In this document: piece after piece, positions 897 through 35,500 of the stretch
Numbering within the stretch: position 1 is the stretch's first letter
Layout of the letters: the number at the start of each line of letters is the position of its first letter
IMG/VR virus record: IMGVR_UViG_3300031707_000057
Coordinates: 1 to 39,776 of that record
Origin: a virus
Direction: 5' to 3' (one strand)
DNA: 39,776 nt
The notes under the pieces: model-generated
The model's database searches: none
What the model was told of the DNA's origin: nothing
The model's input: the letters and a program-made list of their open reading frames with translations, nothing else
Program-made: the position numbers and the translations under genes

Positions 897-2354
897 TTAA
901 ACGATTGCGGCCGTTATTCTTGAACTATCGAATAAGCAAATTTCCGACGCGGCGACGGCAATATTTGACGTTGACCATGAAGGCGGGCCGCCCGCCGTGT
1001 TTGTTTTTGATATTTTTATTACGGCGGTCGCGATTCCAGAAACAGAATAAACAGGATTATAAAACTTTTGAATAATCATGTTTTGACCGATTTCAAAAGT
1101 ATTTCCATAAGCCAAAATATTCGCGCGAATTAAATCAATTCCGTTTGTCGGAAATGTTTCTTCTGGATTCAATGTAATAACAACATCGACCCAGCCGAAT
1201 CTCTCTGTCGGTCTTGAAAAATTTATCGTTTGAAGGTTTCCCTGGGAATCGGTTATTTGAATATGTTCGCCTGTGCCCGGATCGCTCCATGTTTCTATAC
1301 CGGCGGGCTTTAACTGCCAAAGTTTTTCTGCAATATCCGCGTCCGTTCCACCGACAACGATTGTTTCGAAAGACTTTCCGGGACGTCCGTCGCCGTCCGT
1401 GATAAGCGTTCTATTTTCTATTATTAAAACGGCCAGGACGGATTCGACTTCTTGTAATATACGCGCACGGATAGCTTCAAAGGACGCGGCGCCCAGGACG
1501 CGCAAACTTGCCCGGCGTCGAATCCGAAGTTCGTCATCGGTTTCAATATTTCGCCCCGTTGCTCCGTCTTGTAAATTATTGACCGCGACAAGACCAGAAA
1601 CAGGCGTTTCAATCTTAGTCAACGCGCCCGCGACCGCAACTATTGGGCCTGTGTTTAACGCTTCGTAACTTGTCGGCGTCCATATTTCAAGCAATGTTAA
1701 ATTTGTAAAAGTCACAACTGAAAAAGGCGTTTGTAAATCGTCAACTAAAACAGTAAAAGTTCCATCAAGATTATCGGTCGCGGTTACTTTGTCTTGTGTC
1801 GGCGGCCCGGAATTAATAACAGTTACAAACGCCTGAACGATTTCATCTTTTGTCGGACTGGAATCGGACAAGACTTCAAAATCGGTTCCGTCAATCTGAA
1901 CTTTATATGTGTACCCTGGTACAAGCGTCGATATATCTATTATACATTTTAAAACTTTGTATTTCGTAATTGTTTCGTCTTCTTTTTGTTCAAAGATTTC
2001 GTTCACAATTGAAAGACTGGTTTGGGTTCCTTTTGGAACGACAGTTCCTTCAACCCCGTTTAAAATTGCCGTGACCTCTGTTTTTGTCGCGCCTAATCGA
2101 ATGACCCCGGTATATTGCGCGACGTTATCAAGCGAAAATCCTTCGGCGGACGCCGGATATTCTGAAAGATAAACCGCTTCCATAACTTCCCAAATGTCGG
2201 AAATTGTCTTTGATACAATCCCAATTATTTGACCGAAGACGGAATCCGGCGCCGTGTTTATTTCTGGAAATGTTGTTTTTAAATCGGTTTCAATATCTGA
2301 AATAATTTCTGGTAAACGTTTAATTTCAAAACCGTTTTGCGTTAATCCTGACAT
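897..2354 (-). CDS. Baseplate J-like wedge protein (Mu gp47 / P2 gpJ family)
   Basis: 485 residues. The N-terminus (LPEIISDIETDL, then DSVFGQIIGI) and the middle part GRNIETDDELRIRRRASLRV are typical of the baseplate_J family, which forms the outer baseplate wedge of contractile tails. Start ATG 2354 has an AGAGG site. Residues about 143-225 form an inserted beta-rich domain (YTYKVQIDGTDFEV onward) not usual for J proteins and related to inserts in three other virion proteins here. The 1-bp gap from the gp46/gp25-like gene upstream matches the usual wedge gene order. Confidence 0.85.
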   Translation of the reverse strand: MSGLTQNGFEIKRLPEIISDIETDLKTTFPEINTAPDSVFGQIIGIVSKTISDIWEVMEAVYLSEYPASAEGFSLDNVAQYTGVIRLGATKTEVTAILNGVEGTVVPKGTQTSLSIVNEIFEQKEDETITKYKVLKCIIDISTLVPGYTYKVQIDGTDFEVLSDSSPTKDEIVQAFVTVINSGPPTQDKVTATDNLDGTFTVLVDDLQTPFSVVTFTNLTLLEIWTPTSYEALNTGPIVAVAGALTKIETPVSGLVAVNNLQDGATGRNIETDDELRIRRRASLRVLGAASFEAIRARILQEVESVLAVLIIENRTLITDGDGRPGKSFETIVVGGTDADIAEKLWQLKPAGIETWSDPGTGEHIQITDSQGNLQTINFSRPTERFGWVDVVITLNPEETFPTNGIDLIRANILAYGNTFEIGQNMIIQKFYNPVYSVSGIATAVIKISKTNTAGGPPSWSTSNIAVAASEICLFDSSRITAAIV

Positions 2355-2355
2355 A

Positions 2356-2721
2356 TTATAAAACCTCTGTTTTTGTAACCGACCCGAAATCCGTGTCGGC
2401 TGTGAATGTTACCGTCAAGCGTCGCGTTTGTGGATTGAAAGAACTTTCATAGGCCAATAAACTTTTAACGCCTGGAGTATCTAATATATATGCTTTCATT
2501 ATGGCGTCTATTCGTCCAAGGTTCGGATTTTTTACAAGAATATCCTCATACAATGGAAGACCGGTCAACGTGTCAAGGAAATATTCACCGCGAAAAAATA
2601 AGTTTCGAATACTTGCGTTTTGCGAAATAGCTTCTTGACCTTCGACAATTTTCAAATCGTAATTTTCAATTTTTAAATCGTGTGTTTCTTCGTCAAGTAA
2701 AAGGTCTTTTATAATATTCAT
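2356..2721 (-). CDS. Baseplate wedge protein, gp46 / gpW-gp25-like
   Basis: 121 residues. Small acidic protein with the motif NASIRNLFFRGEYFLDTLTGLPLYEDILVKNPN and a C-terminal beta half (RRLTVTFTADTDFG), the pattern of Mu gp46-like and gp25-like wedge proteins. It sits between the spike and J genes, as in Mu-like baseplate operons. Its ATG overlaps the stop of the spike gene (TAATG), so translation is likely coupled. Confidence 0.75.
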   Translation of the reverse strand: MNIIKDLLLDEETHDLKIENYDLKIVEGQEAISQNASIRNLFFRGEYFLDTLTGLPLYEDILVKNPNLGRIDAIMKAYILDTPGVKSLLAYESSFNPQTRRLTVTFTADTDFGSVTKTEVL

Positions 2722-3416
2722 TATTCGGCCTTTGTTTTTACTGTCAATTGTGAATCGTTTAATTCAGTTCCGTTAAATGGCAGTCCTGGAACAGGCACGG
2801 GCGGCGGCAATAAACCAGTCAAAGAAGCGGGTGTCGATGTTGTTACGGCGCTGACAGGGCCTATACAATTATGAACATGATTATTAAAAAGCGTTTTAAA
2901 TTCTTCATTCACTAATTTTTTTAAACTGTTCGCGCCGATTTCAATATTCCCGTCTTTCTTAATAATAATCTTTTCGCTATTATGAACGATAATAAAATCG
3001 TCGTTATTTTCCGCAAGTGTCGCGGCGGTAAAATCCCAAAGCCCAGGTATTGCGATTGCGTCCGTCAAATCGAACTTGCGCGGGTCGCCTGGTTCCGATT
3101 CCCCGCCCTTGAAAAGCCAGGTTTCAAGTGACCGTTGCGAAAAGACCAAAAGAACGCCGTCGCCCTGGACAAGCGGGAAATGAATCATTGACGTTTTTGT
3201 CCTGGGAAAAATAACCGGGACGGCGGATATTATCGGCATAGGTGAAACGGTTCCGTCTTTATATTTCTTTTTAATAAGCGGCGTGACCGTGGCTTTTTGC
3301 GTTTTATAGTCGTATGTTTCAACGCGCCCAGGTAAACAAGTATTAATTAAACCAAGCTGAAACTTGACGGCGGTTTCGATTGCCTGGTTCAAAGTCTTCG
3401 GGTTCGTTTGATTCAT
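2721..3416 (-). CDS. Baseplate spike protein, Gp138/gp45-like
   Basis: About 231 residues from ATG 3416; an in-frame TTG at 3440 is possible, but a GAGG site lies nearer the ATG. The N-terminal OB-like part (INTCLPGRVETYDYKTQKATVTPLI) and the phrase VQGDGVLLVFSQRSLETWL are characteristic of Gp138-type spike N-terminal domains. The C-terminal half is short beta and Pro-rich linker (LLPPPVPVPGLPF). The predicted role is the central membrane-puncturing spike under the hub. It overlaps the end of the hub gene upstream. Confidence 0.75.
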   Translation of the reverse strand: MNQTNPKTLNQAIETAVKFQLGLINTCLPGRVETYDYKTQKATVTPLIKKKYKDGTVSPMPIISAVPVIFPRTKTSMIHFPLVQGDGVLLVFSQRSLETWLFKGGESEPGDPRKFDLTDAIAIPGLWDFTAATLAENNDDFIIVHNSEKIIIKKDGNIEIGANSLKKLVNEEFKTLFNNHVHNCIGPVSAVTTSTPASLTGLLPPPVPVPGLPFNGTELNDSQLTVKTKAE

Positions 3417-3420
3417 TTTT

Positions 3421-4287
3421 CTAAATTTCCTCAACGTCAAGCGAAGTATTCCAGTCGTTCCCGTGTGTGTCGCCGTTGTGTTCTATATTTACGATTCTGA
3501 AATTTGAGCCTTTTTTAATTTCGTGGCTTTCGATTTCTATTTTCCCGCCTATGGTCGCGCCCGCGTAAAGCAACGAATTGACCCGCCATCCTGGGCGCTT
3601 GTCGGTCGCGCCGCTTGCGTCTTGCCCTGAACTCAAATCGGTCAAATGCTCCGGGCTTCCAATAAGACCGGTCGAAGGTGAAAGAAATATTTTCGGTTTA
3701 TTATTTGTCCCGGACATTGTAAGAATTTGCAATTTCCTGTCTTGAACCGACCATTTGAAATTTAATTTTTCTGCAAGTTTATTAAAAGCGTCTTTGACCA
3801 AACCGTTAAACGTGAACCCGGCCCCGAATTCCGCGTCGGTAATGTTTACAGTATCAACAAAATCTTTCGGCAATTCAAGCGCGGAAATGACTTCGCTTAA
3901 AATATGCTTCGCTCCGGTTCCTTCGGCAAAATTGAAACGGATTTTCTTTGTCGTCAATTCTTTTTCGCCGTCGTTGCCTTCAAGTTTGGTAATCCAGTCC
4001 GGGCCGTTCTTTATGTGATTTATGTTTGTTATGTCGCCGGAATATATATCGGTTAAGACGTCCGATTCGCTTAAATAACCAACTGATAATATCATAATGT
4101 CGCGAAGTTTTTTAATTTTGTTTCGGGTGACTTCGGACAAATTATAAACGTCAATTTCCGCCGTGTTCGATTCCGACTTTTCGGTCTTCTTTATTTTAAA
4201 CGTGACCTTTAAATCTTTTATTAATATTCCAGTAAGTGAACCAGGTTCGCCGATAACAACAGAAACGGCGCGATTATATAAACTCAT
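3421..4287 (-). CDS. Baseplate hub protein
   Basis: 288 residues. The N-terminus (ILIKDLKVTFKIKKTEKSESNTAEIDVYNLSEVTRNKI) matches the hub-type proteins found next to Gp138 spikes in Bcep781-like and cyanophage Pam3-like baseplates. It should form the trimeric hub linking the tube to the spike. It overlaps the plug gene upstream by 4 bp (ATGA) and the spike gene downstream. Family assignment rests on sequence feel plus gene order. Confidence 0.7.
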   Translation of the reverse strand: MSLYNRAVSVVIGEPGSLTGILIKDLKVTFKIKKTEKSESNTAEIDVYNLSEVTRNKIKKLRDIMILSVGYLSESDVLTDIYSGDITNINHIKNGPDWITKLEGNDGEKELTTKKIRFNFAEGTGAKHILSEVISALELPKDFVDTVNITDAEFGAGFTFNGLVKDAFNKLAEKLNFKWSVQDRKLQILTMSGTNNKPKIFLSPSTGLIGSPEHLTDLSSGQDASGATDKRPGWRVNSLLYAGATIGGKIEIESHEIKKGSNFRIVNIEHNGDTHGNDWNTSLDVEEI

Positions 4288-7803: not shown

Positions 7804-8247
7804 TTATGTCGCGGGTTCGAAGTCCGCGTTCCCGCCTGGAAATTCGTCGTAATCTGCAAGGTCGAAAATCCATTCCCGATTGCTGATTTCTTTCGCGTAA
7901 TCCAAAGGCGGCATTTTACGAACCCATGCAAGCGCCGAAAAGTGAGTCGAGCGGCCCGAATTGTCTTTTATAAATATCGGGACAATTCCGGTCGCGGTCG
8001 CCTGGTCAAGTATCGCGAAAGCATAAAGCGCGTCGTTCGAAGGCGAAGTTTGAGCAAGCGTTATAGTCAACTGTCCGGACTGGTCGTTCGACTTCGCGCG
8101 TGAAACGATTCCGTCGGTTCCGACAACTTTCGAAAAAGCGTCCGTTGACCGTTCCAAGTGAATAAAAGTTCCGTCTGCGAATCCGTGAATCGGAACGCCG
8201 CCGACCACAACGGAAACCGCTTTCGGGTCGTATGTTCTGACTGACAT
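7804..8247 (-). CDS. Tail tube protein (DUF3277-like)
   Basis: 147 residues. It starts MSVRTYDPKAVSVVVGGVPIHGFADGTFIHLERSTDAFSKVVG and contains GLVSRAKSND-like and LTITLAQTSPSNDALYA segments typical of the DUF3277 inner tube family of contractile phages. It forms stacked hexameric rings inside the sheath. SD AAAAAGGGG. It lies between sheath and chaperone genes, the standard order. Confidence 0.85.
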   Translation of the reverse strand: MSVRTYDPKAVSVVVGGVPIHGFADGTFIHLERSTDAFSKVVGTDGIVSRAKSNDQSGQLTITLAQTSPSNDALYAFAILDQATATGIVPIFIKDNSGRSTHFSALAWVRKMPPLDYAKEISNREWIFDLADYDEFPGGNADFEPAT

Positions 8248-8291: not shown

Positions 8292-9596
8292 TTACAGAGT
8301 GACAACGCCTTGTATTGTGACCGCGTGAATCGCTCCGGAAAGCGTCGCGACGAATTTGACGTCCGGCAATAACCGGGCGGCTTTGTTTATCGTCGAAACA
8401 TCTTTCGCAAGTGGCGCGGTTACGGTCGGCGCCGGGTCGTCAACAAGACCGCCGCGATTAATTCCCTCTTGTAATTGTGCCTTGACTTCGGCGACGACGA
8501 CGGAAATTCCGGCGTCGGTAAAAGGAATCTTCGGCAGGTTTACGAACTTTGAATAAACGCGGCTTGTCATTCTGCTTTGAAGCCAGTCCACAAAAACAAT
8601 AATATCAACGTATTCGCCCGCCGCGACTTTGCCTTCGTGGATAATATTTACCCCGCCTATTTCTTGATAAGTCATGCAATTTTTATCAAGAGCGTTCTTG
8701 CTTGAAGTGTCGGTCAATACGTCCACCGTAACGCCTGCAAGCGTCTTGAACATAAGAGTATAAGAACCTGGGTCAAGAACAAGAATCTTTCCGAACGCGG
8801 CGGCTTCGGGAAACATCGAATCGGCAACGGCGGAATAAATACATCCAGTCCTTGCATACGCGGCGGCTTTCAATTGCGCGGCGACGCTTGTCGTATCGGC
8901 GGCGGCGGTCGTTGAAATAATTATTCCTTCGTTTGACGAAGTTAAATAAATCTTTTTCAATGTTTCGATTTTCGCGGCCATTAAAAGAACCTGGGCTTTC
9001 GTGTGGTTCGTGTATATAACGCCGTAAAAATCGTCGGACGCTTCGATAATTGCGTCCATTGTTTGGGCCGGTGTTTCGGTTACTGTGAACGCCGCAATTG
9101 TGATTCTTGTTCCGGCTGTCAGTTTATAGGCGGTATTTGCAACGTCGGCGCTTAATGTGAAATTTCCGCCGGTTCCATCGGTCGCGGTTACGGGTTCCGA
9201 CCCTGCATTTATCGCGGCGACGACGCCGGTCGCAATCTGCGCGACAGTTTCGCTGGTTCCGCTTGTGTATGTAAAAGCAACGCCGTTTATTGTAACAACG
9301 TAATCAAAAGCGTTTGCGCTTGAAGCAATTGTAACCGTGACCGGGTCGTTGGCTTTTGCGCGTCCAATTGCAATCTGGATGGGAGTCGGGTCTTGCCCGA
9401 AAAGTTTTGATGCGGCCAAATATTCAAGGTCTGTCGCGTCAAAATCAGCGGCGACGGCTGTAAGCGTCGAATAAAATTTAATCCGTTCGGTAAAACGTTT
9501 GTGAACGCCGATTATCAAGGCGGTTCCGAATCCGGCTTGACTTACGGCGGCGGTCTGCCTGGTAATTGAAACATTGACAATGTCCGATAATGGCAT
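8292..9596 (-). CDS. Tail sheath protein (DUF3383-like)
   Basis: 434 residues. The N-terminus (LSDIVNVSITRQTAAVSQAGFGTALIIG) and C-terminus (GRGGLVDDPAPTVT-like, ARLLPDVKFVATLSGAIHAVTIQGVVTL) match the DUF3383 contractile sheath family. Residues about 86-174 form an extra beta-rich domain (DYVVTINGVAFTYTSGTSETVAQIATGVVAAINAG) also found in three other virion proteins of this phage, probably displayed on the sheath surface. Start ATG 9596 has an AAAAAGGGGG site. Confidence 0.88.
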   Translation of the reverse strand: MPLSDIVNVSITRQTAAVSQAGFGTALIIGVHKRFTERIKFYSTLTAVAADFDATDLEYLAASKLFGQDPTPIQIAIGRAKANDPVTVTIASSANAFDYVVTINGVAFTYTSGTSETVAQIATGVVAAINAGSEPVTATDGTGGNFTLSADVANTAYKLTAGTRITIAAFTVTETPAQTMDAIIEASDDFYGVIYTNHTKAQVLLMAAKIETLKKIYLTSSNEGIIISTTAAADTTSVAAQLKAAAYARTGCIYSAVADSMFPEAAAFGKILVLDPGSYTLMFKTLAGVTVDVLTDTSSKNALDKNCMTYQEIGGVNIIHEGKVAAGEYVDIIVFVDWLQSRMTSRVYSKFVNLPKIPFTDAGISVVVAEVKAQLQEGINRGGLVDDPAPTVTAPLAKDVSTINKAARLLPDVKFVATLSGAIHAVTIQGVVTL

Positions 9597-9609
9597 AAAA
9601 GCCCCCTTT

Positions 9610-10401
9610 TTAAATTGTTATATTTTCAGTTAATTTCAAAACGTTATCTTTATAATATTTTCCCTGTGCTTCAAGGTGTTCAATTTTCCCGACGTTCGCG
9701 GTTTGAATTTGTGCCATTCTGAATTGAACATCGAAAGAAACCGATTCTTGAAACGTGGTTTCTTCCAGGACTGAAAGATTTTGAATCGCGGTTTCGTCAA
9801 CAAAACAAAAATCTGAAACGCGGAACCCTTCAAGCGTCGCGTCCAGGTAAAGCGAAGATCTTAAATTTTCCATTTCTAAAAGCGCGTTTGTGCCTTGCGC
9901 GTAAATATAAACCATGAAGTCGCGATTCCCGGTGACTGAATTCGCGCCAGTCGTCGCCGGTCGCCCTTGGTAATCTATCCCGGTTCGTGTAAGACCGGTT
10001 ATTTTCATAGTTATAAAATTATTAGCTTGCGGATTGTTTTGCTCGCCGAAATAAACGGCAAAGACCGGGACTTTAATATTTGCGGACGCGGTCAAGGTGA
10101 ACGCGACGCCGTTTTCTGAATTCAAATAGAACCGCCCATCGATTTCGAATATTGCCAGGACTGGAACGGTCCCGGCGTTTACAACGGCGACAAGGCCGGC
10201 GGCAATGGCCGCGACGGTTTGACCAGTCCCGGACGTATAAACGAACGCCGTCCCGTTTATTGTAACCGTGTAAGCGAAATTATTAACGCTTGCGGTTATG
10301 AATACGGCGGTCGTTTTATAAGACCCGGACGGCGAAACCTGGGACGTGTTCGCAATGGCCCAATTATAAAGCCCGTCTTTTATCGTTTCGAAACTTATCA
10401 T
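9610..10401 (-). CDS. Neck / tail terminator-like protein (LIC_12616-type) with inserted domain
   Basis: 263 residues. The core (MISFETIKDGLYNWAIANT ... QNNPQANNFITMKITGLTRTGIDYQGRPA ... LEETTFQESVSFDVQFR) resembles the LIC_12616-type family seen before DUF3383 sheaths and likely caps the tail top. Residues about 31-115 are the same beta-rich insert as in the sheath (AYTVTINGTAFVYTSGTGQTVAAIAAGLVAVVNAG). Its ATG overlaps the stop of the upstream membrane protein gene (ATGA). Confidence 0.7.
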   Translation of the reverse strand: MISFETIKDGLYNWAIANTSQVSPSGSYKTTAVFITASVNNFAYTVTINGTAFVYTSGTGQTVAAIAAGLVAVVNAGTVPVLAIFEIDGRFYLNSENGVAFTLTASANIKVPVFAVYFGEQNNPQANNFITMKITGLTRTGIDYQGRPATTGANSVTGNRDFMVYIYAQGTNALLEMENLRSSLYLDATLEGFRVSDFCFVDETAIQNLSVLEETTFQESVSFDVQFRMAQIQTANVGKIEHLEAQGKYYKDNVLKLTENITI

Positions 10402-10613
10402 TTTAATACCATATATTTTATAATGTCAAAAAGCGTCGCGGCAAGCGTCGCAATTGCTACAACATAAAAACCGTTTATTTTCTTATGAAGACCGGAAACA
10501 GAAACGCGGGTCATTTCCGCGACTTTGTCAATATTAAGTGACATTTTTTCCATTTTCTCGTTTATAGTTTTATGTTTTTCAATGCAAAGTTTTTCGATAA
10601 AATCGTCCGCCAT
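10398..10613 (-). CDS. Small coiled-coil, single-membrane-span protein
   Basis: 71 residues from ATG 10613; ATG 10622 is an alternative, but its SD would be too close. A charged, probably coiled-coil N-terminal half (IEKLCIEKHKTINEKMEKMSLNIDKV) is followed by one hydrophobic segment (FYVVAIATLAATLFDIIKYM). This resembles XhlA-like or phage accessory membrane proteins. It lies inside the neck module and overlaps the next gene by 4 bp. It could be a lysis accessory protein; function unproven. Confidence 0.6.
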   Translation of the reverse strand: MADDFIEKLCIEKHKTINEKMEKMSLNIDKVAEMTRVSVSGLHKKINGFYVVAIATLAATLFDIIKYMVLK

Positions 10614-10642
10614 GTTTTCCATTTCCTCATTTTATAAATTCC

Positions 10643-10978
10643 TTAACCGGGAATCCGTCTTTGAACAGTCGCCCGATAATGATTAATTATATCGTTTTGC
10701 CATGTTTCACATTTTAAGACCTCAAAATCTTCGCCGTCGATAACAACGCGGTCGGCGTTCGCTCCGCCTTGAATGGCCGGATTTAATTTAACGTCGGTAT
10801 AAAGAATATATGTTTCTGATTCGCGCCGACCTTCGGGCATTAATAACATTTCTTTTCCAGTCGGCGGTTGTTTGCTTGCGGAAATTGAAAATAAAGCTTC
10901 GGAACCTTCGACATACCGGCCTTTATTATATGTTCCCGGTAAATATCTTTTTACGTTAAATGTATGTCTTGGAATCAT
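10643..10978 (-). CDS. Head-tail joining / head closure-like protein
   Basis: 111 residues. Begins MIPRHTFNVKRYLPGTYNKGRYVEGSEALFSISASKQPPTGKEMLLMPEGRRE and ends with a DGEDFEVLKCETWQNDIINHYRA segment. This beta-rich small neck protein type occurs between the gp10-like and tail terminator genes. It overlaps the upstream gene by 4 bp. Its role as connector is from gene order and similarity in feel; no active residues. Confidence 0.6.
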   Translation of the reverse strand: MIPRHTFNVKRYLPGTYNKGRYVEGSEALFSISASKQPPTGKEMLLMPEGRRESETYILYTDVKLNPAIQGGANADRVVIDGEDFEVLKCETWQNDIINHYRATVQRRIPG

Positions 10979-11478
10979 GCGTTTATTACTTCCAAATGTT
11001 GAATTGATTGTCTAAGCTGTCCCGTATCAATAAGCGGGCGCGTTGAACCATGTTTTTTTGCAATTGTGGAAAGCGCGTTCGGCACAAACGGCCCGGCAAC
11101 TATTTTCTTTTGAATCGCGCCTTTCATGTACGCGCCCAGGCGTCCCAGGGAAACAAGAACGGTCGCGGAACCTTTTAATATTTTGTCGTATTCTTTTTCT
11201 ACAAGAACCGCGACGGTTCCTTTTGTTTCGTCGAACGTGCTTCGCATAAAAGAACGCTCCGGAATCTTGCGGCGCGGCGCCCCGAATTCGTTCGCCGCCG
11301 CAATGGTTACCAGGTCGGACATTTTGAACGCGGCCCGGTCTTCGTCTTTCGCGCTTTGGGCGGTTTGTTCTACTTTTCCGCCTTCGGGTAGACCGGCTTT
11401 CGTAAACGAATTTTTTGCGCGTTTCAGTTCGGTTTGAATCCGAAGCCAACCTAAATCTTTTATAATAACATCGTTCAT
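10975..11478 (-). CDS. HK97 gp10-like / virion morphogenesis protein
   Basis: 167 residues. It contains IAAANEFGAPRRKIPERSFMRSTFDE and a C-terminal LIDTGQLRQSIQH, the two hallmarks of the broad gp10-like/tail-completion family in which the first segment reads as xNEFG..xIPxRxFxR. It is expected at the head-tail junction. It lies between the DUF4054-like adaptor and the head closure-like gene. Confidence 0.7.
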   Translation of the reverse strand: MNDVIIKDLGWLRIQTELKRAKNSFTKAGLPEGGKVEQTAQSAKDEDRAAFKMSDLVTIAAANEFGAPRRKIPERSFMRSTFDETKGTVAVLVEKEYDKILKGSATVLVSLGRLGAYMKGAIQKKIVAGPFVPNALSTIAKKHGSTRPLIDTGQLRQSIQHLEVINA

Positions 11479-11490
11479 TTTAAAGCGTTC

Positions 11491-11844
11491 CTATATTGTA
11501 CGATTGCGGGCGGTCATTATCATCGTATTTCTTAAACGTAACAATTCAAGACCCCAGGACGTTGAGGCCAGTTCGTTATCGTTATTATTAATCATTCCGC
11601 CGCCATAAGACCGGGACAATTGCCCCTCTGTTTCGCTTGTTATCGCGCCCCCGGCCCCGCCAACGCCGCCGCCGTTCCGGGCGTCCAGCGCCAACCAATG
11701 CAAAACAAGCAACGCGATTGCGTCGTTTGTCCTGGTTCCAAATACGGAACCGGTTTGTTCTGTTGCAAGTGTTATAAGAGAATTAACGCGGGCGTTAATA
11801 ACAACGGTCAAACATCGGGCGACAATGATTTCGGCGACGGTCAT
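11491..11844 (-). CDS. Head-tail adaptor (DUF4054-like)
   Basis: 117 residues. The arrangement of an N-terminal helix, ALLVLHWLALDARNGGG, a Gly-rich middle (GGVGGAGGAITSETEGQLSRSYG) and a final helix (STSWGLELLRLRNTM) fits the DUF4054 adaptor family that binds under the portal. ATG 11844 overlaps the end of the previous gene by 4 bp. Confidence 0.75.
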   Translation of the reverse strand: MTVAEIIVARCLTVVINARVNSLITLATEQTGSVFGTRTNDAIALLVLHWLALDARNGGGVGGAGGAITSETEGQLSRSYGGGMINNNDNELASTSWGLELLRLRNTMIMTARNRTI

Positions 11845-12287
11845 TGTTCGCCGTCCGGTTCTTTTTCGCGAACGATGTCAATTTGTTTTTGTATTGCAAT
11901 CTGAACTTTTTTTCTTTTTTCAAGTTTCAAAATCGCTTCCAGTTCCGGAACCAGGTACATTTTTTTAATGACTTTGAAACAGGCTTCGACGGTCATTTTC
12001 GCAAGTTGCGCGGCTTTGTTGATTATTTTGTTTTGGTCAAAAAGTCCGGCATCGGGCGCGGGCGTGGTCGCGGGAGCGGATTCGGTCGGCTTCGGTTTGT
12101 CCGGGTTCGTTTCAACGGCGTCGTGGTGTTTATCAATTATTTTAATCGTTCCGGCTTCGACGTTTTCTTTAAACGACGGGTCGGCAAGAAAACGCGGCGC
12201 ATCTTCGTTTGAAATAATGTTGACGCCTGGAAATACAAAAACTCCTGCTATTTTTGTTACGCTTGGTTTGATTCTTTCAATTATCAT
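11841..12287 (-). CDS. Hypothetical head-module protein
   Basis: 148 residues from ATG 12287, which has an AAGGGACGG site; an upstream in-frame start at 12305 lacks one. The N-terminal domain IERIKPSVTKIAGVFVFPGVNIISNEDA is joined by a Pro/Thr/Ala-rich linker (about 70-90) to a charged helical C-terminus. It lies between the capsid terminator and the adaptor. No family recognised with confidence; similar short proteins with a P-G-x-N type beta half occur after capsid genes. Confidence 0.6.
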   Translation of the reverse strand: MIIERIKPSVTKIAGVFVFPGVNIISNEDAPRFLADPSFKENVEAGTIKIIDKHHDAVETNPDKPKPTESAPATTPAPDAGLFDQNKIINKAAQLAKMTVEACFKVIKKMYLVPELEAILKLEKRKKVQIAIQKQIDIVREKEPDGEQ

Positions 12288-12315
12288 TTTAGACCGTCCC
12301 TTCAAAAATGTTTTT

Positions 12316-12346
12316 AAAAATGGGCGGCGGCGTGGAACCGCCGCCC
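12316..12346 (-). terminator. Intrinsic terminator after the major capsid gene
   Basis: Perfect 9-bp stem GGGCGGCGG / CCGCCGCCC with a 7-base loop, followed on the minus strand by ATTTTT. It begins 25 bp after the capsid stop codon. It probably limits read-through from the highly expressed capsid gene into neck genes. Confidence 0.85.
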
Positions 12347-12370
12347 GTGAATTAACTTAAACCCCGTCGC

Positions 12371-13333
12371 TTATATACCCTGATATATTGAGAAAGCAAG
12401 GGGATAATAAACAATAACGCCGCCGACGCGGGAATGACAAGGAATGACGTATTCAAGTCCGCGTTCCTGAACGGGTAATTGTTCGAACGGTTGCGGAATT
12501 TCAAGCGTGATTTTGTCCGCCGTGAAATTGCCGAATATTAACAAATCAGTCGGGCCGCCGACGCCGGTCGAAGGCAACGGCGAAACCGCCGCAAGTTCGG
12601 GAACCCATGTCACCGTTTTAATATACGGGTGATTTTTCTTGAAAAATTCAAGAATGGTCGTATCGGTTCCGGACGCCATGCGTTTCGAAGAAATGATTTC
12701 ATACTGTGCAATCGGCATTAAAACAGTATCGGGCAACTCGACGCCCTTGGTCAATGAAATTATATCTTTAACGCCGTTTACAAGGTCGGTATAGATTTCT
12801 TCATTTGTCTTTGCGCTCCAAAGATAAACCGGCCCGGCTCCGGCGGCGACTGTCGCGGACGGAATGTTCGGGTTAAAAATCAAACCGGTCAACCCGCCGT
12901 TGACGCCGTCGTTCGAACGTGCAAGCCATGCAAGTTTATTGACTGCCTGGTCGTTCGCAAGACGAACCGCGTTCGCTTTACGCTGTTGAAGCGGGAGTCC
13001 GGCCATTGACGCCGAACGTATTTCTTGAAGATTGTAACCGTAAGAACCGCCCAGGGAACGAACGGCAGTCGAAAACTCTTTTCCCTTAATGTCCGACCGT
13101 GGCAAGTCATCGGCATAGTTCGCGATAATTTTCATCATTCCAACGCTGTCGAATGACTGATAAGTTATCACGGCGGCCCCGGCCCCGGCTTCGGTTGAAA
13201 CCGGCATTAATTCCGTCGCCTTCATGTTTGGATATACTATGTCATACGTTTTCGCCTTTATGTGTTCCAATTGACGGGCGAAAAAGGCGCTTTCGCTTGC
13301 GTCAAGGTTTTGCGCTCTGATTATTTCCGGCAT
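12371..13333 (-). CDS. Major capsid protein (DUF2184-like, HK97 fold)
   Basis: 320 residues. It has the DUF2184 pattern: LEHIKAKTYDIVYPNMKATELMPVSTEAGAGA, SLGGSYGYNLQEIRSAS, NDGVNGGLTGLIFNPN and VYYPLAFSIYQ at the C-terminus. This forms the icosahedral shell. It is one of the few genes here with a canonical AGGAG site (start ATG 13333), consistent with high expression, and is followed by a strong terminator. Confidence 0.88.
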   Translation of the reverse strand: MPEIIRAQNLDASESAFFARQLEHIKAKTYDIVYPNMKATELMPVSTEAGAGAAVITYQSFDSVGMMKIIANYADDLPRSDIKGKEFSTAVRSLGGSYGYNLQEIRSASMAGLPLQQRKANAVRLANDQAVNKLAWLARSNDGVNGGLTGLIFNPNIPSATVAAGAGPVYLWSAKTNEEIYTDLVNGVKDIISLTKGVELPDTVLMPIAQYEIISSKRMASGTDTTILEFFKKNHPYIKTVTWVPELAAVSPLPSTGVGGPTDLLIFGNFTADKITLEIPQPFEQLPVQERGLEYVIPCHSRVGGVIVYYPLAFSIYQGI

Positions 13334-13399
13334 TGCGTTTAACTCCTGTTAAATGTTTTATGTTTAAAACTTTCCCTTTTTATTTTTCCCTTTTACTTA

Positions 13400-14170
13400 T
13401 CAAGGAATATTGATTTCGACTTTCGCAATCCCGGCGCCCGAAGTTGCACTTCTGAAAACGCCCGTCGGAACAAGAATGTTCGGCGAAGTCGTGTCGTCTG
13501 TAAATTTGCCTTTGTCTGCTCCGGTTGTAATAAGATAAACGGCGGCATTTTCGACAACGGCGTCGGCCACTTCAACCCATGCCATCCCTTTTCGAAGGAC
13601 ATTGACCGGGTCGTTTGCAAGATAGCCAGTCGCGACGAATGTTGACGCGCCCAGGACTGGCATTGTTCTGTTGTCCTGGTGGGTTTGAAGTGATATTCCG
13701 CGAACTATATCAAGCGACGTTGCGACGTTTGTCGAAATAATCATGGTTCCAGTAACGCCCGTTACATCGGTTGTTATTGTCAGTTCAATGTCGCTGTTTG
13801 CGGTAATTGTGATTGTATGCGAACCGGACGAATAAACGGCGGTATCAATTGAAACATTCGCGGCAAGCGCGGCGGCGAACGCTGTCATTGTGGTATCTTT
13901 GTCCGTTCCCCAGGCTGTCGAAACTACAACGCCGTTCACGGTCGCGGCAATTGCCCCGGCTGTAAAAGTTCCGGCGTTATCGGTTAAAACAACGCGGTTG
14001 ACATTCGGTAAACGCGCTTGACTTTCCGGATATGCGTTTCCGCGAACGACGCCCAGGCCAAAGCCCAGGGCGGAAACCGCCTGAAAAGATTCTACTTCGT
14101 CGAACCGGGCGTCGGCTTTCATTCCGGCGAACGCCTGGGTCATAGTGTTCGTATAAGCTAACTGTGGCAT
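13400..14170 (-). CDS. Capsid decoration / DUF2190-like protein with inserted domain
   Basis: 256 residues. The N-terminus (MTQAFAGMKADARFDEVESFQAVSALGFGLGVVRG) and C-terminus (VLRKGMAWVEVADAVVENAAVYL, GVFRSATSGAGIAKVEIN) fit the small structural proteins that precede DUF2184 capsids and probably cement or decorate the shell. Residues about 57-145 look like a divergent copy of the beta-rich insert shared with sheath, neck and J proteins. SD AAAAGGGGG, ATG 14170. Confidence 0.72.
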   Translation of the reverse strand: MPQLAYTNTMTQAFAGMKADARFDEVESFQAVSALGFGLGVVRGNAYPESQARLPNVNRVVLTDNAGTFTAGAIAATVNGVVVSTAWGTDKDTTMTAFAAALAANVSIDTAVYSSGSHTITITANSDIELTITTDVTGVTGTMIISTNVATSLDIVRGISLQTHQDNRTMPVLGASTFVATGYLANDPVNVLRKGMAWVEVADAVVENAAVYLITTGADKGKFTDDTTSPNILVPTGVFRSATSGAGIAKVEINIP

Positions 14171-24186: not shown

Positions 24187-24392
24187 TTTTCGACCCTCCT
24201 GAATCCAAGACCCGCGATTGCATAACGATATTTAAAAAGGCGGTTTTCCATTGCGGTTGTTCCATTGCGAATTTTTTCTAATAATTTCATTAATTCGCGT
24301 TCGGTTTTAGGCTTAGATAATGTTTCCGCTGATATAATTTCAATAACTTCGTTAAGCAAATTACAAACTGTTCTCTTTTCTTTTTTACCCAT
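24183..24392 (-). CDS. Small helical hypothetical protein
   Basis: 69 residues from ATG 24392 (GGAG seven bases upstream). Charged helices (MGKKEKRTVCNLLNEVIEII, KTERELMKLLEKIRNGTTAMENRLFKYR). Overlaps both neighbours slightly. No family recognised. Confidence 0.6.
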   Translation of the reverse strand: MGKKEKRTVCNLLNEVIEIISAETLSKPKTERELMKLLEKIRNGTTAMENRLFKYRYAIAGLGFRRVEK

Positions 24393-24855
24393 TGCAAGAC
24401 TCCGACGTTCCAAGTTCGCAAACTTTATTTTTGCCCTTCCAATAAGCGGCCCCGCCGAAATGCGAAACGGCTTCGAAATAAATTTCCGTGATTTTATATC
24501 GTTTGGCTTTTAACGTGAACCAAGCGCGGCGATCGGCGTTTATAAACCATTGAACCAAGGCGAACCGGTGTCTTTTAAGCGGCGGCGGGTCGCCCATTGT
24601 GTTATCAATTTGCCGAATCATATTTATCCGAAATGACCGGTCGGCTTTGTCTTTCGTATCGTTCCCGAACGGCGTTTCTTCGGAATACATAAAGTCGTGT
24701 ATGTCGCAAGACGCGGTAATATTAACACCCAGGATATTATCGGGAACCAGATAATCGCCGATTCCGTGAAACTTCGGGCCACAACCATTACAAAGAAATC
24801 TTTTTTCTTCGGGCGTCAACGTCCAGTAACGCGCGGGCGCGAACAGTTTTTCCAT
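24385..24855 (-). CDS. Phospholipase A2-like fold candidate
   Basis: 156 residues. FLCNGCGPKFHG (about 20-31) could be the calcium loop and ASCDIHDFMYSEE (about 48-60) matches the C-x-x-H-D-x-x-Y catalytic helix of secreted phospholipase A2, with His53-Asp54 as the dyad. A second helix follows (KADRSFRINMIRQI). Related-looking proteins occur in other phages without known function. If active it would cleave membrane phospholipids. No signal peptide. ATG 24855 overlaps the stop of the truncated gene upstream. Confidence 0.6.
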   Translation of the reverse strand: MEKLFAPARYWTLTPEEKRFLCNGCGPKFHGIGDYLVPDNILGVNITASCDIHDFMYSEETPFGNDTKDKADRSFRINMIRQIDNTMGDPPPLKRHRFALVQWFINADRRAWFTLKAKRYKITEIYFEAVSHFGGAAYWKGKNKVCELGTSESCNG

Positions 24856-29542: not shown

Positions 29543-30844
29543 CTAAACCCCCTTGTTAGATTCAAATTTGTCTATATATGCCGAAAGCGTTCGTTCCAGT
29601 TCCGGCGCGTTCTTGAAATGTTCCAGGACGACGGAAATATCGGTATTTTTCAACGGAACCCAGGACGCGACGTTTTGTTTTATAAAAACATTTACGCAAT
29701 AAAAAATTGCTTTTCCGGCGGCCCGGACAAACAACGCGCCCTTGCTTTTTTCGTAAAGACCGCGAATGTCTGCAATGTCCGACGTCCGTTTCCTGGTCGC
29801 CGCTTCGGAAATCGGCGCGGCATTATACGGCGGCGTTTTGTCCGGTTCCTGTACAGCGTTCAATGCCTGGGCCGCCCCCGAAGGCGGCGGGCCGTGTTTA
29901 ATTACGTCCGGGTGTTCCGTTTCGGGCGGCGCCTGGTCGTCGGACGGCGGCGGCGGCGAATCAGTTCCGCCGGGCGTCCCGGTCGGCTTCTTTCCGTTCC
30001 CGTTCCCGTTCGGCGGCTTCGGTTCCCTGGGAATTGTCAACGCGGCGTCTTCAAAAACTTTTCCGCATCCGCCCTTTCGTTTGTAACAAACAAACCCCCC
30101 GCCATATTCCGGCTTCGACGCGATTATTGCGTCCGACCCGCAAGCGGGACATTTACGCAACGGCGGGCGTCCCTGGTCGGGTGTTTGCCCGGCGGGCGCG
30201 GCGGTCGTTCCCTGGGCGGCCTGGTTCGTGGTCCCGGCGGGCGTTCCTTGTTCATCATAAAACGGCGAAACGTCTTTCCGGCGGAAAGCATATTCGCCCT
30301 TTTTGGTTCGATAAACCTTGACCGAATATTCTTTTTCCCACTTTCTGCAAAATTGCGGTTGCCATAGTTCCTTAGCAACGCCTAAATCTTTACAAGCGCG
30401 GGCGATTGCGTCTGATTTAGCCGATTCGTAAACGGTAGCCCAGGACATATTTTTGTTTGACCGTATATAATCGGCTTCGCCCATTGCGCGGGAGACGAAC
30501 TTTCCGCGAATGACTAAAGACCCGTCAAAGCAAAGCGTATTCCCGACGATTGTAATTCCGTTTTGAATCAATGCCCATTGACCAGGGCCGAAGGCGGCGT
30601 TCAACTTTTCCCGGACGAAAACTTGCGGCAAATATAAAAGACCGTCCGGACGGATTTCGACTTCTTGATTATTGACCGGCACGTTTAAAGTGTCGCGTTC
30701 CTTTTGGCTGATTTCCAAAAGCGCGGCGCCCTTGTAAAATTCCGCGTGTGTTTGCGGCAAATCCGGCGGACGTTCCGCGTAAAGTTTCGCCGGGTCGGAA
30801 TCGACCGGCGGCGGGTTCGGAATCAGGTTTTTTTGATTTTCCAT
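29543..30844 (-). CDS. Rad52/Mgm101-like single-strand annealing protein with zinc ribbon
   Basis: 433 residues. The core (about 60-185) has YLPQVFVREKLNAAFGPGQWAL and SWATVYESAKSDAIARACKDLGVAKELWQPQF, the conserved block of the Mgm101/Rad52 family. A zinc ribbon follows (Cys232, 235, 253, 260: CPACG ... CYKRKGGC). A long Pro/Gly-rich linker and a helical C-terminal domain (about 350-433) complete it. It anneals complementary strands in phage recombination. The ribbon and C-terminal domain are additions to the minimal family. Confidence 0.82.
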   Translation of the reverse strand: MENQKNLIPNPPPVDSDPAKLYAERPPDLPQTHAEFYKGAALLEISQKERDTLNVPVNNQEVEIRPDGLLYLPQVFVREKLNAAFGPGQWALIQNGITIVGNTLCFDGSLVIRGKFVSRAMGEADYIRSNKNMSWATVYESAKSDAIARACKDLGVAKELWQPQFCRKWEKEYSVKVYRTKKGEYAFRRKDVSPFYDEQGTPAGTTNQAAQGTTAAPAGQTPDQGRPPLRKCPACGSDAIIASKPEYGGGFVCYKRKGGCGKVFEDAALTIPREPKPPNGNGNGKKPTGTPGGTDSPPPPSDDQAPPETEHPDVIKHGPPPSGAAQALNAVQEPDKTPPYNAAPISEAATRKRTSDIADIRGLYEKSKGALFVRAAGKAIFYCVNVFIKQNVASWVPLKNTDISVVLEHFKNAPELERTLSAYIDKFESNKGV

Positions 30845-34325: not shown

Positions 34326-34895
34326 TTAACCCCGCCGATAAATAAAATTTCCTTTGACTTTTTTTGTTCCGCTTGCAGTCCACAAAGACCCGAAGACCAG
34401 CGAAGGGAAAATATTGACTTGTCGCGTTCCCGCCGATAGATTTAAATAACCAATTCCGTCGACGCCTGAATCAGTTATTCGGGAAATCGCGACAACATTT
34501 CCCGATTCATATTGAGAGGGAATCGAAGACGGCAAATTGAAATATAAGTCGGTTTGATTGCTTGTTCCTTCAAGGTCGTAAATAATATAAACGGCGTCAC
34601 TTGTTAAGACTTTAAATTTTAAAATCTTTGTTGTAAATACTGAAAAACCGATAATTAATTCTGTACTAAAATCGTCGAACTCGCTGTCGATTTCTGTGAT
34701 TTCTTCATTGAACCATTTAAGCCATTTATAAATTAAATTTGAAAGCCAATTGAAAAACTGCCTTGGCGGAAATTCTTTAAATATCCAACCGGTTTTTTTC
34801 CGCGTGGCGGTCGGTTCAACGATATTGCTTTGACCACTTGACGGGTCAATAATTGTCGTCAACGCCCATTCTGGAAGTTTTGTCGGTTTTGCCAT
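34326..34895 (-). CDS. Tail fibre protein, paralogue 2
   Basis: 189 residues. N-terminus MAKPTKLPEWALTTIIDPSS with GQSNIVEPTATRKKTGWIFKEFPPRQFFNWLSNLIYKWLKWFNE is a well-known phage fibre N-terminal motif (WA...DP.SGQ.N...P...K..GW). The C-terminal half is a different beta domain (VYIIYDLEGTSNQTDLYFNLP) likely to bind receptor or act as tip. It arises by duplication with the 34898 gene. Confidence 0.75.
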   Translation of the reverse strand: MAKPTKLPEWALTTIIDPSSGQSNIVEPTATRKKTGWIFKEFPPRQFFNWLSNLIYKWLKWFNEEITEIDSEFDDFSTELIIGFSVFTTKILKFKVLTSDAVYIIYDLEGTSNQTDLYFNLPSSIPSQYESGNVVAISRITDSGVDGIGYLNLSAGTRQVNIFPSLVFGSLWTASGTKKVKGNFIYRRG

Positions 34896-34897
34896 TT

Positions 34898-35500
34898 TTA
34901 TAATTCCTTTTTAAACCATAAAAAACCGCTTACTTTTTTATTACCCGAACCCGTCCATGTTGAATTAGGAATAGTTATTCCCGTCGTTAAGTCCGGATAA
35001 AAATAAATTCGTGTCGCGTTAAGTTCATGGGCCAAAGCCGAAACGCCCAGGGTGTCGGCGCCGCCGTCCTTTATAGATAAGTTCATTGTTAAGACCGCCC
35101 CGGAATCTGCCGAAAGTTCCAGCGTTCCGGGTAAATAAATAACCGTAATATTAAGCGGGTCGCCAGCCCCTTCGAAATGATAACTTATAAAAACAAGGTC
35201 GTTTATTTCCCGAACAAAAAACTTTTTAGTTGTAAGAGATGTCCATCCGTTGTATGCAATAATATCAGCGGAACGGTCAATAAATCCAAGTTCAATATAT
35301 GTTATTCTTTCATCGAACCATTTTAACCATTCGTTTGTCAATCTTAAAAGCCAGTTAAAAAATTGACGTGGTGGAAACTGTTTAAAAGTCCAGCCCGTAT
35401 TTTTTTGACCAGCTGACGGTTCGACAACATTGTTTTGTCCGCTTGTCGGGTCAATAATGTCTGAAAGCGCCCAATCTGGAAATAATGTCGGTTTTGCCAT
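34898..35500 (-). CDS. Tail fibre protein, paralogue 1
   Basis: 200 residues. N-terminus MAKPTLFPDWALSDIIDPTS then GQNNVVEPSAGQKNTGWTFKQFPPRQFFNWLLRLTNEWLKWF is strongly similar to the next gene over its first 70 residues; C-terminal domains differ (VFISYHFEGAGDPLNITVIYLPG). Tandem duplication with tip divergence. AAAAGGGG before ATG 35500. Confidence 0.75.
   Translation of the reverse strand: MAKPTLFPDWALSDIIDPTSGQNNVVEPSAGQKNTGWTFKQFPPRQFFNWLLRLTNEWLKWFDERITYIELGFIDRSADIIAYNGWTSLTTKKFFVREINDLVFISYHFEGAGDPLNITVIYLPGTLELSADSGAVLTMNLSIKDGGADTLGVSALAHELNATRIYFYPDLTTGITIPNSTWTGSGNKKVSGFLWFKKEL

Follow-up and report, generated by a model that had tools for sequence, protein, structure and literature searches.

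Domains that resemble flagellin D2 and FliD D3 have been described on several phage particles. The authors of the XM1 study found such a sheath insertion domain (InD), likened it to FliD D3 and called it unique to XM1. According to the Adele paper, the fold occurs in sheaths, nozzles, auxiliary capsid proteins, FliD and flagellin. Evseev et al. 2022 discussed adhesion or stability as roles of extra sheath domains. Neither the fold itself nor its presence in the sheaths, nozzles and capsid proteins of phages is new, and portable Ig-like domains provide a precedent. Here we analyze the virus record IMGVR_UViG_3300031707_000057 (39,776 nt; this whole stretch is called the window, and residues are numbered per protein), in which a domain predicted to have this fold, about 90 residues long in each case, is found in the tail sheath, the neck tail terminator, the capsid cement protein, and a baseplate wedge J-like protein (J) of one phage. 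The literature searched, outside which most subscription papers lie, does not report the domain in a tail terminator, in multiple slots (carrier protein classes) per phage, or homogenized within a genome. The occurrence of the domain in four virion proteins of a single genome, the tail terminator included, looks new, as do several independent insertion sites, two domain types replacing each other in one slot and measurable within-genome homogenization.

The InD of XM1, the sheath extension domain (SED) of Milano and the lateral domain of the Pakpunavirus type are of the same fold class as the window domain, are inserted in the sheath and face outward. Those reports place the domain in the sheath, whereas here it is also present in the terminator, cement, and J. 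The FD domain of the phicrAss001 auxiliary capsid protein (VIA Z 8.8–8.9) and the distal domain of T7-like nozzles (VIA Z 10–12) have the same fold and are likewise parts of virion surface proteins, however, the host proteins and phage groups are others and one slot each is reported. The T7 fiber dock was also considered as an equivalent domain and set aside: in T7 gp12, residues 147–249 are flanked by Y146 and Y281 and would correspond to the exit of the nozzle tip from the propeller. Phage Ig-like domains, for which later papers cite Fraser et al. 2006, are portable among unrelated virion proteins and were proposed to be weak binders of surface carbohydrates. The window domain shares this portability but differs in fold, having a central helix and being closest to the flagellin/FliD-like domains. 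Flagellin D2, FliD D3, and domain 2 of GbpA are alike in fold (Z 9.8 to 6), but they belong to cellular proteins and their sequence similarity to the window domain is marginal.

The four carrier genes belong to a minus-strand myophage head-tail cassette of the window. The genes and their domain copies, which fall into two sequence types, A and B, are the following.

8292..9596, minus strand: tail sheath protein of the DUF3383 type, 434 aa (Pfam DUF3383 E 3.6e-33, phrog_205 E 5.7e-106)
9075..9341, minus strand: domain copy of the sheath, residues 86–174, A-type
9610..10401, minus strand: neck tail-terminator protein, 263 aa (PF23961 E 4.3e-15, from residue 117 on)
10057..10317, minus strand: domain copy of the terminator, residues 29–115 near the N-terminus, A-type (AlphaFold2 pLDDT 87.8)
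13400..14170, minus strand: capsid cement/decoration protein, 256 aa (PF22758 E 1.1e-13)
13712..14002, minus strand: domain copy of the cement protein, residues 57–153, B-type (AlphaFold2 pLDDT 90.4, VIA matches)
897..2354, minus strand: baseplate wedge J-like protein, 485 aa (PF04865 E 2.6e-9, phrog_6 E 5.1e-54)
1671..1946, minus strand: domain copy of J, residues 137–228, A-type (BLASTP in the window, A-type domain search)

The initial annotation had claimed that one beta-rich domain is inserted in the sheath, neck and decoration proteins and probably in J. It named and placed the four genes correctly, except that it put J within 8292–14170, outside of which J in fact lies. The shared domain itself was confirmed in all four proteins, by sequence for the sheath, terminator, and J and by predicted fold for the cement protein.

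BLASTP within the window aligns the sheath from residue 88 with the terminator from residue 33 (E 3e-17) and sheath residues 88–167 with J residues 139–221 (E 4e-6). Searched against the PDB, the A-type profile matches the sheath gp76 and the J protein gp88 of one solved virion (9zdk/9zd7), Bas63 wedge protein 2, two more sheaths, and a nozzle, always at the insert position; the matched J segments are residues 136–228 of the Bas63 protein and 166–241 of gp88 (9zd7). The family match of the window sheath spans the insert (phrog_205 residues 1–433, DUF3383 4–384) and its PDB relatives, 9zdk gp76 among them, align through this region; the protein is a DUF3383-type contractile sheath with an insertion domain. 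Inside each type, profile matches reach E 1e-20 to 1e-34. The cement insert gives no significant pairwise BLASTP match to the sheath, terminator, or J within the window, and its alignment scores to them are at most about 2 standard deviations from those of shuffled sequence. The cement profile matches gp76 at the insert of gp76 with E 0.03. Comparison of the A-type and B-type by hhalign yields a probability of 25% and E 8e-4, with shuffles scoring nearly as high. Homology of the cement copy from sequence alone was rejected as too weak by BLASTP, profiles and shuffles, and since no sequence match is detectable in the window, this copy was established via predicted structure. Pfam covers the domain poorly and no model fits well: Flagellin_IN marginally matches two of 58 domain members (best E 0.023), and Big_2 shows weak matches in two of the 58 (best E 4e-4).

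Structure prediction of the terminator and cement inserts, one of the checks that the initial annotation had suggested, revealed the same fold in both. The terminator insert was modeled from a 58-row A-type domain alignment with this insert as the head row, the cement insert from another alignment that combined cement proteins with B-type domains. The terminator model has the order beta-beta-beta-alpha-beta-beta-beta, and the cement model has the same order with an extra strand at the end; in both, a helix of 13–14 residues separates strands 3 and 4. The domain is not purely beta-rich, given the central helix. Neither model is an all-beta Greek-key sandwich devoid of a central helix, as an Ig-like domain would be. 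In VIA, the terminator insert superposes on the Bas63 baseplate chain 9ndy_L, residues 130–231 (Z 13.6), the A-1(L) sheath, residues 93–189 (Z 13.5), the P-SCSP1u nozzle, residues 148–240 (Z 12.2), and the sheaths of PhiTE (Z 11.8), Mu (Z 10.5), and Sf14 (residues 81–183, Z 10.3). Chain 9ndy_L is probably Bas63 wedge protein 2, to judge by its size and the 9ndy_H match. Then follow flagellins (Z 9.8 and, for P. aeruginosa, 9.7), the phicrAss001 capsid protein (Z 8.9), GbpA domain 2 as a weaker match (Z 7.7), and FliD (Z 7.3 and 6.8). The insert also aligns to segment 91–203 of the Milano sheath, named the "external sheath extension domain" (PMC10811340). The cement residues 57–153 match the PhiTE sheath (Z 10.2), 9ndy_L 134–228 (Z 10.1), the P-SCSP1u nozzle (Z 10.0), the A-1(L) and Mu sheaths (Z 9.2 and 8.9), flagellins (Z 8.6 and 8.3), and FliD (Z 7.8), the FliD values for both inserts being, if taken alone, middling by VIA's own scale. 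The two inserts superpose on identical residue ranges of identical PDB chains. Foldseek results are weaker, with a best E of 1.4e-4 for the terminator insert and 5e-7 for the cement model, the latter to the core rather than the insert. This core superposes on XM1 gp53 (Z 18.0) and the Pam3 cement protein (Z 16.3) and matches the E217 cement protein in VIA as well; both in core fold and in sequence, the protein belongs to the E217 gp24/Pam3 gp6/XM1 gp53 cement family. In general, these data strongly support one common fold in the sheath, terminator, cement, and J, and the models assign it to the flagellin D2/FliD D3-like class.

Relatives were collected from 80 viral loci, two genome loci, and earlier ones, giving 66 non-redundant loci (L numbers below), and the domain searches detected 70 A-type domains, distributed over 66 proteins, and 45 of the B-type, distributed over 38. 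Among 62 sheaths with a core, 28 have an A-type and 12 a B-type domain (three fall under both), eight are without an insert (one of them partial), and the rest have an insert that was not recognized. In some of the domain-free sheaths there is a clean gap from core residue 84 to 174. The cement slot (35 proteins) has seven A-type, 19 B-type, and six short proteins without the domain, and the J slot (29 proteins) has 19, two, and two, respectively. Only four of 59 terminators carry the domain (three A-type, one B-type), nearly all others being insert-free proteins of 161–208 aa. Even these few use three sites, near the N-terminus in the window and L042 and elsewhere in L088 and L060, and the site shared by the window and L042 holds an A-type copy in the former and a B-type copy in the latter. 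The sheath copy is at a different site in L051 and L052, as is the J copy in L060, and the sheaths of L081 and L044 (724 and 735 aa) have tandem copies. In cultured phages, 1030 records match the window sheath and 914 match J, in each case along 80% or more of the protein; tblastn of the terminator, the terminator insert, and the cement protein against cultured phages gave no match.

The inserts are present in some relatives and absent from others across all four slots, as the second suggested check was meant to reveal; presence, position, and copy number all vary, which bears out the claim of portability. The opposing idea, in which the inserts would simply belong to each family, applies to the sheath and J and for the most part to cement, and not to the terminator. 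Among relatives the domain is an ordinary but optional part of the sheath, J, and cement families; in terminators it is rare, and the window terminator has gained it. Optional presence and independent insertion sites are strongly supported, and over evolution the domain has been dispensable at each slot.

Several further proteins of these loci deserve mention. Seventeen sheaths of 408–591 aa (L058, L062, L066, and others) have room for an insert that neither profile matches, perhaps one of another type or fold. A head-completion-type protein (phrog_939; L062:4601-5203), encoded just upstream of the terminator, has a C-terminal A-type domain and represents a fifth slot; its orthologues are found in L053, L066, L067, L076, L077, and L078. 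L017:2078-3523 encodes a terminator-like protein with a repeat-like extension of about 300 residues. L087 (JAGLZG010000246.1) is a contig of the same phage group binned in a metagenome-assembled genome of Nanoarchaeota, possibly by a binning error.

The copies appear to have been exchanged. When same-type domains from different proteins are compared, they are more alike within a genome than expected: same-genome pairs score 107.8 vs. 85.6 ± 4.7 after permutation (0/2000), and 73.0 vs. 51.2 ± 4.5 (0/2000) with correction for composition. The A tree requires 10 slot changes (minimum 5) and the B tree 15 (minimum 4), both trees being built on few columns and leaving many forks open. The terminator and sheath copies of L088 are sisters (SH-aLRT 99). 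In L009, the cement insert is 80% identical to the insert of another head protein adjacent to the cement region (L009:2448-3251), and the B-type domain of the L029 sheath is 71% identical to a head-protein copy of L009. Turnover of the domain between slots is thereby strongly supported. The intragenomic recombination put forward in the initial annotation is supported as a many-genome trend and by the single cases L009 and L088, and not as the specific source of the window terminator copy. The best pairwise match of this copy is the window's own sheath copy (50% aa), but the two do not form a sister pair in the tree, and in AU tests a sheath, sheath-group, or J partner is equally acceptable; origin from the window's own sheath was rejected as a conclusion. 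Nor did the similarity at the DNA level that had been cited in support hold up. The local DNA score of 43 between the sheath and terminator inserts is reached by 77 of 500 pairs with randomized synonymous codons, so that the similarity corresponds to synonymous-codon expectation and gives no sign of a recent event. Between L005 and the window, the cement gene and the sheath domain are identical and the terminator only 94% identical in amino acids (domain dS 0.46), which suggests a recombination tract. The phage also encodes a protein that could promote exchange between diverged copies.

29543..30844, minus strand: Mgm101-type single-strand annealing protein (PF06420 E 1.5e-41, no PHROG match)

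The domain copies are under purifying selection comparable with that of the core, with omega of about 0.03–0.25 in nearly all copies; between L036 and L039 there are 26 synonymous and zero amino-acid changes. The identity of the domain roughly equals that of the core or falls somewhat short of it, with slightly less conservation at mid distances. Conservation is concentrated in core hydrophobics, a turn, and helix caps, positions that look structural. Neither the purifying selection nor the absence of a conserved polar site suggests a hypervariable receptor binder. Surface adhesion, put forward in the initial annotation as glycan or cell-surface binding, is plausible by analogy, GbpA domains 2 and 3 being needed for attachment to the V. 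cholerae surface (PMC3257281), and an accessory role of this kind seems to us the single most likely one, ahead of reinforcement and of a passenger state. Phage K8 GP075, variants of which bind core oligosaccharide, was considered as functional evidence and set aside, since it is a DUF2612 baseplate protein and not J.

We assume, with about an even chance of being right, that a portable flagellin-D2/FliD-D3-like domain sits at outward sites of the four virion proteins as an accessory surface module. A self-contained domain would be looped into the sheath, tail terminator, cement, and J at sites that all probably face outward, and copies would move by recombination within one genome and between phages, possibly with the help of the Mgm101-type annealase. 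The least certain steps are that the domain would let the particle touch the bacterial surface or its polymers weakly at many points, and that it would be neither the main receptor binder nor a part of the assembly machinery. Several observations weigh against this reading. The relation between the A-type and B-type is one of fold, the sequence link between them being weak; the tree does not fix the source of the window terminator copy; the conserved positions include no invariant polar cluster; and the copies show no signal of diversifying selection. In addition, the domain with this fold in phicrAss001 is in contact with the major capsid protein (PMC10172136), which favors a structural role.

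Structural reinforcement is the likeliest of the alternatives, and we consider it possible but unlikely. The domain would stabilize the particle or dock a neighbor via adjacent subunits and be kept for stability, one of the two roles that Evseev et al. 2022 proposed. Besides the phicrAss001 contact, such a role fits the slow change under purifying selection and the similar fold of T4 gp11, a joiner of the baseplate and short tail fibers (VIA Z 6.0 with the cement model). However, domain-free relatives exist in every slot and are evidently still virion proteins, and the three insertion sites within the terminator family are hard to square with a single conserved interface. The Adele paper, citing work on PhiTE, gives the sheath domain no direct part in contraction. 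A tolerated passenger, that is, a well-folding domain recopied into permissive surface loops to no benefit, with selection guarding only against misfolding, is less probable still. Presence, position, and copy number do vary widely, one terminator site has seen a swap of types, and conservation drops slightly under that of the core at mid distances, but the wide retention in the sheath and J (more than 900 phage records each at ≥80% of the protein) and the strong constraint seen in L036/L039 are not what a passenger would show. That the inserts are unrelated and merely share a composition rich in Ala, Thr, Val, and Gly is very improbable, since the near-shuffled scores of cement vs. sheath agree with it but the within-type profile matches and the fold comparison, with the strand/helix order and the matched PDB residues shared by both models, contradict it.

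The neighboring structural genes of the cassette are listed below.

12371-13333, minus strand: major capsid protein
7804-8247, minus strand: KPP10_Orf10/phrog_280 structural protein
3421-4287, minus strand: hub
2721-3440, minus strand: spike

Elsewhere in the window, positions 24385-24855 (minus strand) encode a small protein with a CDIHD motif and a weak match, below the cut-off, to prokaryotic phospholipase A2 (PF09056 E 7e-4). Two adjacent tail-fiber-like genes (34326-34895 and 34898-35500, minus strand), both phrog_4465, have near-identical N-termini and different C-terminal parts.

A bolder extension, which we regard as rather doubtful, would be that in phages of this group the whole particle, from capsid and neck to tail and baseplate, is coated with one interchangeable adhesive domain, the copies being kept alike in each genome by recombination, so that surface chemistry evolves as a unit and not separately in each protein. 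For annotation, caution is advisable, as a sheath-terminator or sheath-J match may partly stem from the domain alone. Finally, the natural pairs with and without the domain, such as the terminators of the window and L009 or sheaths with A-type and B-type copies, can be used to probe the role of extra virion domains, and through them the question of adhesion versus stability raised in the sheath literature may be addressed.

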